NCBI RefSeq assembly: GCF_000688015.1
Contig: NZ_JIAD01000001.1
Location: 2,108,001 to 2,172,000, forward strand
Origin: Eubacterium sp. AB3007
Lineage (GTDB): Bacteria; Bacillota; Clostridia; Peptostreptococcales; Anaerovoracaceae
DNA length: 64,000 bases
Direction of reading: 5' to 3'
Part shown: in pieces, positions 6,345-15,288 of the stretch
How the letters are laid out: every line of letters begins with the position of its first letter
Position numbering within the stretch: position 1 is the stretch's first letter
Made by a program: the position numbers and the translations under genes
The notes under the pieces: model-generated
What the model was told of the DNA's origin: nothing
Databases searched by the model: none
The model's input: the letters and a program-made list of their open reading frames with translations, nothing else

Positions 6345-8495
6345 ATGGATAAGAAATACATAGAAGAGAAGTTCCGGCTGGATGGACTGGAGACGCCGGA
6401 GAGTTTGTCGGAGGAAGCAATGCTGGCCAGGCTGCAGGCAGCAGAGGAGGGCCCGGCCACAGAAACTTCGGGCCGGGCCAGTGAGGCGGGCGCGACACAG
6501 ACACCTGCGCCCGCCGTGAGAGAGGATCGTGCGGTCCGCAGACCGACCTTCTTCCGCCGCCACCGAGGGCTGGCAGCGATCGCCGCCTGTCTGGTGTTGG
6601 CGATGGCCACTGTACCCCTCTGGAAGGAGGCAGGAGAAAACTTCTGGTATGGCGCAGATGTGATGACAGGAGAGGGCCAGGATAGTCTGGTCGCTTTCCA
6701 AAACTACGAGGACATCCGGGCGGAACTGAAGAAGATCGACCAGAACCAGATAGCCTTTCGCAAGGAGACGCTCTATGCGAACGTTCTGGAGGGTGACATG
6801 GCGGCGACAGAAGAGGCGCCTTCAGATGACGCGGTTTCCGCAGGGAATGGCGCGGCGCCGGGTCTGGCCGCCAAGGGCGCCGCGGGTAGCAGCGGGAATA
6901 CCGAAGCGAACAGTTACTCCGAAACCTACAAGCAGGTGGAAGGGGTGGACGAGGCGGACATCATCAAGACCGATGGGAAGTATATCTACCACATCACCAT
7001 GGATGGAGAGATCCAGGTCAGCAAGCCGGATGGCAAAAAGGCAGAGGCCATCACCACCATCAAGCCCGGAAAGCATGCCGGTTTCACGGATCTTTACCTG
7101 AGAGAGGACAGGTTGATCGCCATTGGGAGCATGTATGATGGGAGCATGACGAAGGGCGGGATCGTTCCGGAGAACGACAGAGCCTCCGTCACAGTATACG
7201 AAATGACCGATCCTGCCCATCCCGAGAAACGGAAGAAGTTCCAGCAGAGTGGAAACGTGGTGTCTAGCCGGATGGCAGATGGGTATGTCTACCTGGTGAC
7301 CGATTGTTATGCGGGAGAGAAGGAAGACTTTGTGCCCCGGACCACTTCGGACGGGAAAGAGAAGAAACTGGCGGCGCAGGATATCTACTGCATGCCGAGT
7401 CCCAGCGGCCGATCTTACGCGGTGCTTAGTGCCATCGACATCGATGGCGGCACCAAGGAGGAGGCCAAGACCAAGGCGGTGCTGGGAGCATCGGAGGAGA
7501 TCTACTGCAACGGGGAGCACATGTACATCGCCGGAGCCGAAGCGGACGGTATGGTGGGCGCTTACTGGTACCCGGGATACCGTCCGGCATACACCAGGAT
7601 CCTGAAAGCGGATCTGAAGGATGGCAAGGTGAAGTTCCTGCACTCTGTCCGGGTGCGTGGGAGCATCAACGACCAGTTCTCCATGGACGAGAAAGACGGC
7701 TACCTGCGGGTGGCCACCACCTCCAACAAGGACGGGAAGGACGAGAACAACCTGTACGTGCTGGACGCGAAACTGAAGAAGGCGGGTAGCGTAAAGGGAT
7801 TTGCCAGGGACGAGCACATCGAGTCCGTTCGTTTCCTGGGGGACCGGGGCTACGTGATCACCTACAGGCAGACAGACCCGTTGTTCGTACTGGATCTCAG
7901 CAATCCCAGGAAACCGAAGATCGACGGCAGCGTGAAGATCAGTGGATTCTCCACCCTGCTGGTACCGGTGGATGAGAAGACGTTGCTGGGGATCGGTTAT
8001 TGCACCAGATCCACCGAAGGCGGCGAAGCCTTGAACGGTACCAAGCTGGCACTCTTTGATGTCAGCAATCCTTCCAAACCAAAGGTGAAGGACAGCAAGG
8101 AGTTCCCGGGCATGGACAGCCCGGCCCAGTTCGAGCACAAAGCCCTGCTAGTGGGACCGGGGAGCAGCTGGTACGCGATCCCTTACACTATCTGGCAGGA
8201 TGATTGGACGGGCATCGAGGATGCGGAGGAACTGCCGGATGTGATCGAGGAGGACGTGGTCGATGGCGAACCGGAGGAAGCGGCCCCGGATGTGGCCATT
8301 GACACTGACAGCGATTATACCACCGGCTGCGAAGGTGGCGTGCTTACCTTCTCTGCCGGATCCAAACTCTCCAAAAGCAAGAAACACTCCTTGTCCGACC
8401 AGGGGATGCAGCGTGCCGTCTACATCAATGGATACATCTACGGCCTGGACGAAGGCGACCAGATCACCGGGATGAAGTTTGGGGGGAATCATTGA
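6345..8495 (+). CDS. Membrane-anchored secreted beta-propeller protein, candidate anti-sigma partner
   Basis: 716 residues. An N-terminal cytoplasmic stretch of about 80 residues is followed by a single membrane helix (LAAIAACLVLAMATVPLW). The exported domain begins at VEGVDEADIIKTDGKYIYHI, the signature of the PF09826-type beta-propeller family. Repeated blade-like segments follow (KPKIDGSVKISGF, SNPSKPKVKDSKEF). The topology (cytoplasmic N-terminus, one helix, large external domain) and co-transcription with an ECF sigma gene suggest signal reception coupled to sigma release. That function is inference. I see no zinc-binding HxxxCxxC motif in the cytoplasmic segment. An acidic insert lies near residues 620-660. 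Confidence 0.82.
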   Translation: MDKKYIEEKFRLDGLETPESLSEEAMLARLQAAEEGPATETSGRASEAGATQTPAPAVREDRAVRRPTFFRRHRGLAAIAACLVLAMATVPLWKEAGENFWYGADVMTGEGQDSLVAFQNYEDIRAELKKIDQNQIAFRKETLYANVLEGDMAATEEAPSDDAVSAGNGAAPGLAAKGAAGSSGNTEANSYSETYKQVEGVDEADIIKTDGKYIYHITMDGEIQVSKPDGKKAEAITTIKPGKHAGFTDLYLREDRLIAIGSMYDGSMTKGGIVPENDRASVTVYEMTDPAHPEKRKKFQQSGNVVSSRMADGYVYLVTDCYAGEKEDFVPRTTSDGKEKKLAAQDIYCMPSPSGRSYAVLSAIDIDGGTKEEAKTKAVLGASEEIYCNGEHMYIAGAEADGMVGAYWYPGYRPAYTRILKADLKDGKVKFLHSVRVRGSINDQFSMDEKDGYLRVATTSNKDGKDENNLYVLDAKLKKAGSVKGFARDEHIESVRFLGDRGYVITYRQTDPLFVLDLSNPRKPKIDGSVKISGFSTLLVPVDEKTLLGIGYCTRSTEGGEALNGTKLALFDVSNPSKPKVKDSKEFPGMDSPAQFEHKALLVGPGSSWYAIPYTIWQDDWTGIEDAEELPDVIEEDVVDGEPEEAAPDVAIDTDSDYTTGCEGGVLTFSAGSKLSKSKKHSLSDQGMQRAVYINGYIYGLDEGDQITGMKFGGNH

Positions 8496-12223: not shown

Positions 12224-13024
12224 CTATTGCTTGAATACCTGAGACTGTCTGACGAACCAGATCACCTGTTGACGCAGGAACTGGAAATCCACTTCCCCAT
12301 CCGGCCCTTCGAAGGTATATAGGATATCGCGGAAGGGGATCAGGCCGGCGCGCAGGTATTGTTCGTGTTTCCAAAGGAATTTTCGTGTGTAGTTGGGGTC
12401 ATCCATCCGGCCCAGGTGTTCATGATACTTTAGGTCGATGGCAAAGGGAATCAGGAGTGTCATGTCTGTGTTGATGATGAGGCCGGACGGAGTCCGAAAC
12501 TCTTCTTCGTAGTGCACCTGTACCCCCAATTCTTCGTACAGATCCATAAACCAAGACTCAATGCGCGACCGGACACGGTCGCCTTTTTTGGTGGTGATCG
12601 TCAGGTTTTCCGGATGTCGCTGGCTTCTCCGGTAGGAGGATGTTTCCCAATCACGGCTATCGATGGCGCCTATGGTCTGAAAAACAACAGGGCTGGGGTT
12701 TGCGTAGGCCGGGGAAAAACCCTGGAGGAGCACGTTTGGATCGATGACCTGATACCCCTCCACAAGAGGGCTGAGGAGGGCAATGTTTGTGTCCAGGTGC
12801 TTGACTTCTTCTTCCAACATGTGGCGGTCGATCAGCTTCTGGATCAAAGGGTCATCTCTGTGCAGGTACTTGCGTACGCCATCGCAGTAATATAGATAGT
12901 AAATGGTGTTGTGTTTTCGGTATATGGACAACGTCCCTCGCGGCAACTTGTTCAGCGCCTCCTGGCATCGGAGCCGCTTCTCCTGCAATTCGAGCAGTAG
13001 TTCTCTGGTTTCCAGCATATTCAT
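12224..13024 (-). CDS. Orphan protein with predicted PD-(D/E)XK nuclease-like C-terminal domain (paralogue 1)
   Basis: 266 residues. The N-terminal third is helical and basic, with a strand-rich YRKHNTIYYLYYCDGVRKYL segment (about 35-55). The C-terminal half has the order expected of a PD-(D/E)XK fold: a helix with Glu (RVRSRIESWFMDLYEELG), a strand with Asp (LIINTDMTLLI), a third strand with acidic and Lys residues (AIDLKYHEHLG), then a K/Y-rich helix. It is homologous to the protein at 52803-53630, which shares TYYYL, RVRSKGE and IIEHLG. AAGGAGGAG precedes the ATG. The 5' end faces a hairpin repeat array and an IS. No methylase or specificity partner is adjacent. Nuclease activity is inferred from fold pattern only. 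Confidence 0.6.
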   Translation of the reverse strand: MNMLETRELLLELQEKRLRCQEALNKLPRGTLSIYRKHNTIYYLYYCDGVRKYLHRDDPLIQKLIDRHMLEEEVKHLDTNIALLSPLVEGYQVIDPNVLLQGFSPAYANPSPVVFQTIGAIDSRDWETSSYRRSQRHPENLTITTKKGDRVRSRIESWFMDLYEELGVQVHYEEEFRTPSGLIINTDMTLLIPFAIDLKYHEHLGRMDDPNYTRKFLWKHEQYLRAGLIPFRDILYTFEGPDGEVDFQFLRQQVIWFVRQSQVFKQ

Positions 13025-13167: not shown

Positions 13168-13441
13168 GGACTACAAAAAATAGGGATTGATCGAACTTTG
13201 TAGTAGGTGCGAGTGGTGACCTGCTACAATGATGACTATTATGCTTTTTTTTGTAGTAGGTTCCAGGCCGTACCTGCTACAAAAACAGAGAAACATGTAG
13301 TTTTTGTAGTCGTATGCCTCTTTGTGCAGGAGGATGATATTCCAAAAATATAAATATTTGTCGCCGAGTGCTACAAAAAAATGTGAAACGAGTTGTTTTG
13401 TAGTCGTTTTGTCTATGGAACGACTACAGATTTTCCGATAT
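13168..13441 (+). repeat. Regularly spaced hairpin repeat array, left part (interrupted by IS copy 1)
   Basis: TTTTGTAGT-type cores begin (GTAG/GTCG) at 13200, 13253, 13306, 13360 and 13400, mostly about 53 bp apart. The complete units are TTTGTAGTAGGT-10 nt-ACCTGCTACAA (13197-13229) and the copy at about 13250-13285, plus TGTAGTCGTT-10 nt-AACGACTACA (13399-13428). In the first two, the same stem position is a T-G wobble. Other copies have one clear arm only. An inverted arm (ACTACAAAAAA) opens the array at 13170. The array occupies the upstream region of the nuclease-like gene on the minus strand. No ORF of note is present. Confidence 0.75.
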
Positions 13442-13471
13442 TGAAGTGTACCCATAAAAGTAGAGTCACTC

Positions 13472-14344
13472 CTATATGATTTCTCCCCTATGATAATAAT
13501 CATACGGGGTTGAGTAATTGATGGATTCGTGTGGCCTTTTACGAGGATAAAAGTGCCACACGTATTCATATATATCACCTTTTGCCTCGTTGATTGTTCT
13601 GTATTTTTTCTTTAGCCATTCTGACTTCATTTTACCCCAGAAACTTTCCATTGGTGCATTGTCCCAGCAATCTCCCTTACGGCTCATGCTGCATATGAAT
13701 CCCTGCCTGCTCAGCATTCTCCTGTATTCCTTCGAACAGTAGGTCGAACCCCTGTCCGAATGTATGATGCATCCCGGACTTCCACAGCCTCTGAGAAGCA
13801 TATCTTTTAATGCATCCATTACCAGAAATCTATCGTTATGCACGCTCATTGCCAACCCTACGGGAAGCCTTCCATACAGATCCAGTATTCCGGCCACATA
13901 CAGATCTCCCTGCTCCGTAGCAATGACTGTTGTATCACTTACCATCTTTTTATCCGGGGCATCAACGCTGAAGTCTCTGTCGATAAGATTGTCGGCGATT
14001 GGCTCGTCATGGTCTGAATCCGTCGTGCAGACAAACCTTCTGCATGTCCTGGAAAAGAGAGCGCACTCCTGCATGATCCTCTCGACACGTTTATGGTTGA
14101 CACGTTTTTTGCGACCTTTATTCAGGATAACGGTTACTTTTCTTGATCCGTATGATCCTCTGGAAGCTCTGTATATGTCGTATATCTCTTTTGTGATCTT
14201 AAGGTCTTCTTTCTCTTTCTCCGTAAGTGGCCCATCGACTCGTCTGCGCCATTTGTAGTATCCGCTCTCTGACACCTTTAGTACTCTGGCCATCCTCGCA
14301 ATGCTGTGCTCGTGTTTATGCTCACGCATGAAAAGATATTTCAA
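13472..14344 (-). CDS. IS3-family transposase OrfB (DDE integrase domain)
   Basis: 290 residues counted from a TTG that overlaps the end of orfA. It is probably made mainly as an OrfAB fusion by -1 slippage upstream. An HTH_21-like region (KITKEIYDIYRASRGSYGSR) is followed by the integrase core with DTTVIATEQGDLYVAGILD (first Asp), IIHSDRGSTYCS (second Asp) and DCWDNAPMESFWGKMKSEW (Glu), completing the DDE triad. The protein is identical to the copy 2 product. The frame is intact, so the element is potentially active. Confidence 0.92.
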   Translation of the reverse strand: MKYLFMREHKHEHSIARMARVLKVSESGYYKWRRRVDGPLTEKEKEDLKITKEIYDIYRASRGSYGSRKVTVILNKGRKKRVNHKRVERIMQECALFSRTCRRFVCTTDSDHDEPIADNLIDRDFSVDAPDKKMVSDTTVIATEQGDLYVAGILDLYGRLPVGLAMSVHNDRFLVMDALKDMLLRGCGSPGCIIHSDRGSTYCSKEYRRMLSRQGFICSMSRKGDCWDNAPMESFWGKMKSEWLKKKYRTINEAKGDIYEYVWHFYPRKRPHESINYSTPYDYYHRGEII

Positions 14345-14646
14345 TCGCGCTTTACATTTGCAAGGAAGGCCGCTGCTTTTTTTAGTATTTCGACCTCCTC
14401 ACGAAGCTCTGCGTTCTCTTTTTCAAGCTCTTTTTCCCGATCGGTCCTCTTATCTGATTTGGTAAACCCTTTTCGAAAGGCTTTATCTTCAACAACTTCA
14501 GCAAGATGATTACGCCATCGTATGACAGTCCACGGCATGATTCCGTACTTGTCGGCTATGACATGTTCCAGATTCTTGTTTTCAGGCAGCAATGCTTCTT
14601 TTGCCACCATCAATTTGAACTGTTTGCTGTAATTTGTTCTTGACAT
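14341..14646 (-). CDS. IS3-family transposase OrfA (helix-turn-helix)
   Basis: 101 residues. The start at 14646 (MSRTNYSKQF) has GGAGGT a few bases upstream, and is preferred over an in-frame ATG eight codons earlier. An N-terminal HTH (YGIMPWTVIRWRNHL) binds the IS ends. A C-terminal leucine-zipper-like coiled coil (EKELEKENAELREEVEILKK) allows multimerisation. A run of seven A followed by G in the ILKKA codons is the expected slippery site for -1 frameshifting into orfB. It differs from copy 2 by one residue (HLAEVVED here, HLAEVGED there). Confidence 0.9.
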   Translation of the reverse strand: MSRTNYSKQFKLMVAKEALLPENKNLEHVIADKYGIMPWTVIRWRNHLAEVVEDKAFRKGFTKSDKRTDREKELEKENAELREEVEILKKAAAFLANVKRD

Positions 14647-14712
14647 GGTGTACCTCCAATCTACATGCATTATACCATGCTTTGCAGACTCTACTTTTTG
14701 GGGTACACCTCA

Positions 14713-14790
14713 TATCATGTTTTTTGTAGTAGGTTCCCTTCCGGACCTGCTACAAAGAACAGGCAATCATCGATTTTTGTAGTCCAAACC
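14713..14790 (+). repeat. Hairpin repeat array, right part (continuation beyond IS copy 1)
   Basis: A complete unit, TTTTTGTAGTAGGT-10 nt-ACCTGCTACAAA, spans about 14720-14757 and has the same wobble position as the left units. A single-arm copy, TTTTTGTAGTCC, follows (GTAG at 14779). Removing the IS and one TAT puts these cores at 13452 and 13505, restoring the 52-53 bp spacing of the left part. Confidence 0.72.
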
Positions 14791-14821: not shown

Positions 14822-14851
14822 TTGACAGTGTACTATGATATATAGTACACT
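14822..14851 (+). promoter_or_regulatory. Promoter with YtrA-type operator for the GntR/ABC operon
   Basis: TTGACA (14822-14827) and TACACT (14846-14851) are 18 bp apart. The inverted repeat AGTGTACTAT-N5-ATAGTACACT (14827-14851) fills the spacer and -10 box. The position and sequence resemble operators of YtrA-subfamily GntR repressors, so autorepression of the downstream operon is inferred. Confidence 0.78.
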
Positions 14852-14874
14852 TAAGTCGGAAAGGAGGAGGTGGT

Positions 14875-15288
14875 ATGATACAGATCGACATGAAAAGTCA
14901 CAAGTCCATCTACCAGCAGGTGGTGGACAATGTGAAGGAACTGATCATGTGTGACCTGCTTCCTGCAGACAGCAAGCTGCCCTCGGTGCGGGATCTCTCT
15001 CGCCAGCTGACCATCAACCCCAATACCGTCCAGAAAGCATTCAAAGAACTGGAACGGGAAGGCTATATTTATACGGTAGCCGGTCGGGGAAGCTTTGTCA
15101 GCGAGCGGCCGCATGCGGTACCGGATCCCAGGCGACTGGCGCAGATCCGCGGGGATGTGGAGAATGCGTACCGGGAGCTTCGGCTAGCCGGGATGAGTCC
15201 AGAGGAGGTACAAAGCTTTGTTCAAGGGATCCTGGAGGATCGCGTTCGGGAAGAGCACACTCAAGATCAGAAGGGAGGCAGGAAATGA
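14875..15288 (+). CDS. GntR-family transcriptional repressor, YtrA subfamily
   Basis: 137 residues. A winged HTH (about 10-80) includes SIYQQVVDNVKELIM, SKLPSVRDLSRQLTINPNTV and YIYTVAGRGSFVS. A short C-terminal helical dimerisation tail follows in place of a large effector domain, which defines the YtrA subfamily. These repressors usually control an adjacent ABC transporter and respond to cell-envelope stress. Here the ATPase gene overlaps its end by four bases and the permease follows. GGAGGAGG lies just upstream of the ATG. The operator at its promoter is probably its own. Confidence 0.92.
   Translation: MIQIDMKSHKSIYQQVVDNVKELIMCDLLPADSKLPSVRDLSRQLTINPNTVQKAFKELEREGYIYTVAGRGSFVSERPHAVPDPRRLAQIRGDVENAYRELRLAGMSPEEVQSFVQGILEDRVREEHTQDQKGGRK

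Follow-up and report, generated by a model that had tools for sequence, protein, structure and literature searches.

Introduction

The nearest described counterparts of the repeat reported here are the BIMEs and GTAG-tagged REPs, which are intergenic and palindromic, carry a GTAG at the palindrome and are targets of insertion sequences (PMC2817692; PMC3733652; PMC1525189). Their units lie at regular spacing and in alternating orientation (PMC2817692; PMC3733652). In these descriptions, REPs usually number over 100 per genome (PMC2817692), the GTAG tag is unpaired and sits at one end of the palindrome (PMC3733652), and two insertion sequences of the IS3 family, IS1397 and ISKpn1, insert into the REP palindromes (PMC1525189). 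One of these accounts mentions neither "Firmicutes" nor "Clostridi" in its main text (PMC3733652). BOX elements of Streptococcus pneumoniae, which are compared here by description rather than by sequence, are composites with fixed ends, a variable number of inner modules and predicted folding; their boxB modules stand in tandem between boxA and boxC, and the account consulted describes no alternating half-site lattice (PMC3049150).

The genome studied here, a single contig of 2,301,752 bases (2.30 Mb), holds an apparently non-coding repeat in eight dispersed copies. One of them, copy W, lies in the window, the whole stretch of 64,000 bases that was analysed (positions 2108001-2172000 of the contig). 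Each copy is a row of sites that read alternately R-CTACA (written <) and TGTAG-Y (written >). As with BIMEs and GTAG-tagged REPs, the element is intergenic and palindromic, has GTAG at the palindrome and is a target of insertion sequences, and the interval counts given below show regularly spaced units in alternating orientation. Here, however, the GTAG is paired inside the stem and mirrored as CTAC at the other end, the loops are of 9-10 nt, the centre is constant, and the copy number of eight is unlike that of REPs. The complementary changes by which BIMEs preserve their palindrome are also little in evidence, pairing being no better than that of shuffles (one of five measures leans the other way). 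BOX-like modularity is seen in the two or three site pairs of each arm, with constant parts around them. The element is thus nearest to BIMEs and BOX elements, and matches the alternation of the former and, in part, their GTAG tag.

Size, a lack of evident coding capacity, inverted arms and dispersal in intergenic DNA also recall MITEs. Unlike in MITEs, no cognate IS was shown, and neither a target-site duplication nor an exact element end could be resolved among the eight copies; ORF maps and a model search of the genome gave no gene-bearing copy with these arrays. A further likeness is to the res site of Tn3/gamma-delta, whose half-sites are inverted with TGT facing outward, whose dimer sites measure near 30 bp with about 53 bp between centres, and which consists of three subsites adjoining its resolvase gene. 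The linker between sites I and II of res is 22 bp (PMC9943657). The present element differs in having up to 12 sites in eight copies, and the neighbours scanned included no recognised recombinase; the likeness is one of analogy alone.

The Array in the Window

The locus had been annotated initially as an array of hairpins with a period of about 53 bp. An array does exist, although its construction is other than described: it consists of alternating sites in a dispersed element, broken on the motif map by an IS3 insert (Table 1). The six inverted motifs of W read ACTACA or GCTACA, and their positions make the repeat unit an alternating pair of sites rather than a lone hairpin, with the element extending over 13170-14783. 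Successive intervals in the left arm are 29, 24, 29, 24 and 29, with an additional TGTAGT at 13296, within the last spacer.

The three TTGTAGTAGGT/ACCTGCTACAA hairpins reported at 13198, 13251 and 14724 are present, and all three have a 10-nt loop and the T-G wobble. In shuffled versions of the window such sites numbered 0.02 on average, and 0 of 100 shuffles had at least three. The fourth hairpin, TGTAGTCGTT/AACGACTACA, also has the 10-nt loop ascribed to it. Other details needed correction. The first core, CTTTGTAGT, is one base off, and the TTT/AAA stem of the first unit has a mismatch as its outermost pair. What had been taken for a core at 13360 is GTCG within TTTGTCGCC, part of the centre, and the intervals of 54 and 40 are artefacts, the real interval being 94 (from GTAG at 13306 to GTAG at 13400).

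Table 1. Features of copy W and its surroundings, in window coordinates
Feature	Position	Strand	Basis or detail
Neighbour ORF, 266 aa, outside element	12224..13024	-	Earlier called nuclease-fold
Whole element, copy W	13170..14783	+	Motif map; direction set by alignment to other copies
Left arm	13170..13310	+	< 13170, > 13199, < 13223, > 13252, < 13276, > 13305
Hairpin 1	13199..13228	+	TGTAGTAGGT, 10-nt loop, ACCTGCTACA
Hairpin 2	13252..13281	+	Stem as in hairpin 1, 10-nt loop
Central module	13305..13375	+	> to < 65 bp
Right arm, first part	13370..13441	+	< 13370, > 13399, < 13423
Hairpin 3 (right arm, first part)	13399-13428	+	TGTAGTCGTT/AACGACTACA, 10-nt loop
IS3-family insertion sequence	13442..14712	-	1271 bp; ORFs 14341-14670 and 13472-14344, minus strand
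Right arm, second part	14725..14783	+	> 14725, < 14749, > 14778; contains hairpin 4, 10-nt loop
GntR-family regulator, promoter and gene, outside element	14822..15288	+	Pfam; comparison with relatives

A Family of Eight Copies

A search for more copies in the genome had been suggested at the outset, and there are seven besides W: c279, c1088, c1286, c1391/1393, c1443, c2044 and c2077 (named by kilobase). Insertions excluded, the copies are about 230-340 bp in size. A pattern of facing TTGTAGT/CTACAA, a DNA query and a covariance model all gave the same eight places, W being matched only weakly by the DNA query (E 0.88). None of the three found a ninth array in the genome, the model having scored 150 of 476 candidates. 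Outside the eight, the pattern gave a single pair without an array at 1364.4 kb, the DNA query three stretches of 18-20 bases (E 0.07-0.9), and the covariance model one match at 1357.0 kb (E 0.83).

All copies read < > < > ... centre ... < > < >, with < first and > last, and what varies is the number of < > pairs, two or three on each side. Left and right arms have 3/3 pairs in W and 3/2 in c1286 (both counted across the IS), 3/2 in c279, 3/2 in c1088 and in c1391/1393 (one motif degenerate in each, and the latter counted across its insert), 2/2 in c1443, 2/3 in c2044 and 2/2 in c2077, where the centre is degenerate. In both directions (39 and 38 sites) the half-site consensus is TTGTAGTaggt with a T-rich 5′ side, its TGTAG being fixed by how the sites were picked.

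Four copies (c1088, c1286, c1391/1393 and c1443) are 78-89% alike over their common pieces and remain homologous past the outer motifs into the flanks; some 430 bp, including a second palindrome family, are common to c1088 and c1286. With such shared flanks the transposed unit cannot be delimited exactly, and it may be larger than the lattice. Several copies have GGACTACA/TGTAGTC(C) at their ends, and the arms show inverted similarity in a mirror comparison that left out c2077 and in which c1443 and c2044 were out of register. On ORF maps the copies are intergenic, lying between ORFs taken as genes; mechanical ORFs of 92-135 aa that overlap five copies were not counted as such. The idea that all copies point toward the origin was rejected, as GC skew (20 sampled stretches plus ten loci; origin near 1.66 Mb, terminus near 0.44 Mb) puts four each way.

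Other repeats and motifs were seen near several copies. The second palindromic repeat, GGGCTGTTGCACAAAGCGTT ... CTGAGGGCAGCAGCCC, stands outside c1088 and c1286 (L025, L026). Copy c279 sits between two stretches that are 73% identical to each other (279271-279488 and 280049-280297; L024), and a 248-bp stretch is repeated with 92% identity just left of c2077 (2075147-2075394 and 2077075-2077322; L030). Tandem repeats of 54 bp occupy 1442515-1442847, about 0.9 kb left of c1443 (L028). Near c2044 (L029) there is a cobalamin riboswitch together with a glycine riboswitch match under the curated threshold (8269-8462 and 1383-1539).

Spacing and Possible Helical Phase

Intervals were counted over the eight elements as 11 pieces, without joining the interrupted copies. 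From < to > the interval is 29 bp in 32 of 35 cases, 28 in two and 20 in one, the last reflecting the extra motif in a W spacer, where the lattice motif follows at 29. From > to < it is 23 in 10 of 28 cases, 24 in another 10, 65 in three, 66 in three, 118 in one and, beside the IS30-like insert, 33 in one. The centre accordingly measures 65 or 66 bp in six of seven measurable copies, and 118 in the degenerate centre of c2077. At three points neighbouring sites run in the same direction, a motif being lost or extra.

These counts bear out the early remark that length is kept while sequence varies, and so does a comparison of spacers. Leaving aside the fifth of the six W spacers, which contains the extra motif, and the sixth, which the IS interrupts, the 13 central bases of the other four agree with those of other copies at 27% on average, where composition alone would give 26% (112 comparisons); despite this chance-level match, W spacer length is unchanged at 23 bases. 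If the spacers are common by descent, substitutions have been saturated while indels were removed; alternatively, spacer pieces of fixed length could have been acquired independently.

Same-direction sites lie 52 (22), 53 (16), 94 (6), 95 (5) or 147 (3) bp apart, with single intervals of 9, 44, 51 and 62 bp, so that 49 of the 56 intervals equal 52/53 or 94/95 bp. These four main classes (49 intervals) fit best to a pitch of 10.52 bp (R 0.96), and all 56 give R 0.94 at 10.5, which would set same-direction sites about five and nine helical turns apart. This phasing is suggestive but not conclusive, since the interval classes are few, related by descent and hence not independent, and a centre of random length has a chance of about 15% of lying within 0.05 turn of a whole number.

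Insertions, Neighbouring Genes and Array-Free Sites

Insertions interrupt three of the eight copies (W, c1286 and c1391/1393). That an IS and one extra TAT had entered the array of W was correctly seen from the start, TAT occurring at 13439-13441 and again at 14713-14715. This IS3 is one of seven in the genome with the same ends, two of them in elements (W and c1286) and five elsewhere. Two of seven is above the intergenic baseline (P about 0.001-0.0025, for assumed intergenic fractions of 10-15%); strict targeting of the element was rejected, with five IS3 copies elsewhere. The ends of the IS3 are unlike those of the element. An ORF that carries an HTH_38 domain and reads as IS30-like splits copy c1391/1393.

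A link between the array and a neighbouring nuclease-fold gene had also been proposed, with the question of whether arrays always adjoin a PD-(D/E)XK gene. The association holds for one of eight copies, and a tie to a nuclease-like gene was rejected. Neither Pfam nor NCBIfam matched the 266-aa neighbour of W at E 0.1, and a single-sequence model of it (mean pLDDT 45.8) does not confirm a nuclease fold; its nine other matches in the genome come no closer than about 11.5 kb to any copy. An ORF beside c279, which looks Rpn/PD-(D/E)XK-like, has no Pfam match and is absent from the genome matches of the 266-aa protein. Neighbours vary from copy to copy, and include a methyltransferase, a solute-binding protein, SmpB, a metallophosphoesterase and a GntR/ABC operon, with no recurring gene seen. 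Pfam left eight of 15 neighbouring proteins, a subset of all neighbours, without a match at E 0.001, so that a partner may have escaped recognition. No cas domain was found among the neighbours scanned with Pfam; the repeats vary and the half-sites alternate, in keeping with the initial annotation's view that the array is not a CRISPR.

Relatives offer sites without the array, in other species rather than sister strains. The gene pair around c2044 is kept in 10 of 16 same-genus relatives without an array, and the gap there has at most one TGTAG/CTACA, versus ten here. At W, the GntR-ABC pair persists in seven relatives that lack the element, along with a promoter that can still be recognised (TTGAC...TAGTACAC/TATAC); these relatives have 0-2 TGTAG/CTACA motifs in the 600 bp upstream, versus 4 here. 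Considering such orthologous sites, the element is more likely an addition to these places than their conserved regulator.

The GntR promoter itself (14822-14850 of the window) contains an inverted repeat, TTGACAGTGTACTATgatataTAGTACAC, that is recognisably kept in the seven relatives and is probably the regulator's own operator.

Search for Relatives Elsewhere

The two-hairpin pattern was absent from all 16 same-genus species, and a covariance-model search with stricter filters, covering 297 genomes that belong to the order and came from a larger group, matched only the source genome (E up to 0.001). Two pattern scans, covering viral contigs and one genome per species, gave 20 loci (9 viral and 11 genome contigs), and a looser pattern gave 95 stretches in viral contigs, with 74 new loci among the 80 listed. 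Among the 94 loci listed (83 viral, 11 genome), the longest lattice chain was four, in eight viral loci. Chains in the element's own loci run from 4 to 10, with 9 in the window; the 4 belongs to c2077, which would therefore not stand out by itself. The four of these eight viral loci that were inspected (L086-L088 and L091) are dense ACTACA clusters of different layout. "Distant" DNA searches gave no match in phages with c1443 as the only query, nor in plasmids with c2044 as the only query. Among the papers listed in the literature searches (for one query, the best 12 of 784), none was recognised as describing an ACTACA/TGTAGT lattice repeat. The collections searched may omit the records nearest to this genome, so that copies in near strains could escape; within them, no convincing relative of the element was recognised outside this genome.

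Two other kinds of repeat came to light in these scans. Viral loci L086-L091 hold a cluster of densely packed ACTACA/TGTAGT repeats that differs in layout, with which L226, L237, L263 and L264 are grouped solely by the same pattern, on both strands and at the same offset. Three Bacilli contigs (L096, L102 and L104) have in common GAAACATTTTGTAG-type repeats about 30 bp apart plus one facing site, an arrangement reminiscent of transposon ends.

Origin and Possible Function

On balance, we regard the element as probably a lineage-specific, modular, non-autonomous mobile repeat in the style of MITEs, BIMEs and BOX elements, whose alternating half-sites would be bound as duplex by a putative protein. 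An apparently non-coding repeat would have come to occupy eight places, most probably by moving as a non-autonomous element. The arms would be rows of the half-site in alternating direction, set at a spacing of B-DNA geometry around the 65/66-bp centre, and a putative transposase/recombinase or host DNA-organising protein would bind this lattice as duplex DNA. The hairpins would then follow from the inverted sites, and units may be gained and lost by recombination in 53-bp steps. The eight copies, their alternation, near-fixed spacing and variable unit number, and the array-free orthologous gene pair of one copy are the observations behind this reading. Against it, the analysis found no enzyme that would mobilise the element; the genome's RAYT-like gene has other palindromes and no TGTAG motif. 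A bolder version, which we hold to be doubtful, is that a putative protein, assembled on as many as 12 sites in a copy, would move the element and also set its unit size on a helix-phased, strictly alternating lattice. If true, the lattice would be a protein-DNA array architecture not met in the REP, BOX or MITE literature consulted. An eight-copy family, so far in one species, would also allow the birth of a modular repeat to be followed.

Small interspersed repeats are often explained by hairpins, and the initial annotation likewise saw selection on a base-paired structure, in DNA or RNA. The hairpins would then be transcribed stem-loops or substrates of HUH (Y1) transposases, as in REP/BIME, which we consider unlikely here. 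As RNA, W has strong folding in its uninterrupted part (z -5.6 on the plus strand, -3.9 on the minus strand), as inverted sites in a row would lead one to expect; each of the four W hairpins is paired along the full 10-bp stem, three with the T-G wobble on the plus strand. The GTAG tag and alternating orientation recall BIMEs (PMC2817692; PMC3733652), and the genome does encode a RAYT-like Y1 transposase, although the palindromes at that gene are unrelated. Pairing and covariation, however, hardly exceed those of shuffles in either phase. Across 20 units, a set limited to motif pairs at lattice distance and so biased to intact units, the 14-pair stem is 82.5% paired and its shuffles 81.9% (127 of 500 reach the observed level), the other hairpin phase is 81.9% paired versus 83.2%, and RNAalifold finds both-sided change in 0 of 6 pairs. 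One of five measures favours hairpin selection, with both-sided change in 4 cells versus 1.9 in shuffles (50 of 500 as high). The core is almost invariant across these units, partly through their selection, and the flanks are without compensation. Of the eight right-arm hairpins in other copies, seven have a mismatch immediately beyond the core; the CGTT/AACG stem once read as compensated is a meeting of two half-site types, which in those seven come together in another way and mismatch. G-T mismatches exceed A-C in the > < phase (27 to 16), mainly through two positions inherited together, and do not in the < > phase (46 to 50), and a strand-specific RNA was rejected on these counts. Rfam gave no match in W at curated thresholds or in four other loci at E up to 1, five copies being covered. 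With so little covariation, a constraint on DNA geometry fits better than hairpin selection, and stem pairing reads as a by-product of inverted half-sites. Spacing here outlives sequence, which together with the scant stem covariation points to the geometry of duplex DNA as the selected trait.

Another alternative is that the copies are chromosome-architecture or partition sites of the host, dispersed rows bound by a nucleoid or segregation protein and not primarily mobile. A helix-phased lattice of many sites fits such a layout, which is of the kind known from centromere-like arrays. This origin is nonetheless quite unlikely: the copies show no replichore polarity, the 16 same-genus species lack the pattern, and the four copies that are 78-89% alike, with their common flanks, look as they would after copying. 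Copying is accommodated by the last alternative, in which a decayed composite repeat, a fossil of IS or transposon ends without present function, would owe its regularity to inheritance. The IS3 in two copies, the IS30-like ORF in a third, the second palindrome family flanking c1088 and c1286 and the degenerate centre of c2077 are all consistent with it, yet spacing is kept where spacers are unalignable, which neutral decay with indels should forbid if the spacers share descent. We consider a fossil improbable.

The genome has two Y1_Tnp matches, one of them RAYT-like (253 aa, at 1111.3 kb; L145 1132-1890). Its 3.3-kb locus contains no TGTAG and one CTACA, and so does not provide a cognate RAYT with the same palindrome; mobilisation of the element by this gene was rejected, as other palindromes flank it. 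These flanking palindromes, TGTGTCAAA...TTTGACACA, possibly represent a separate REP-like family.
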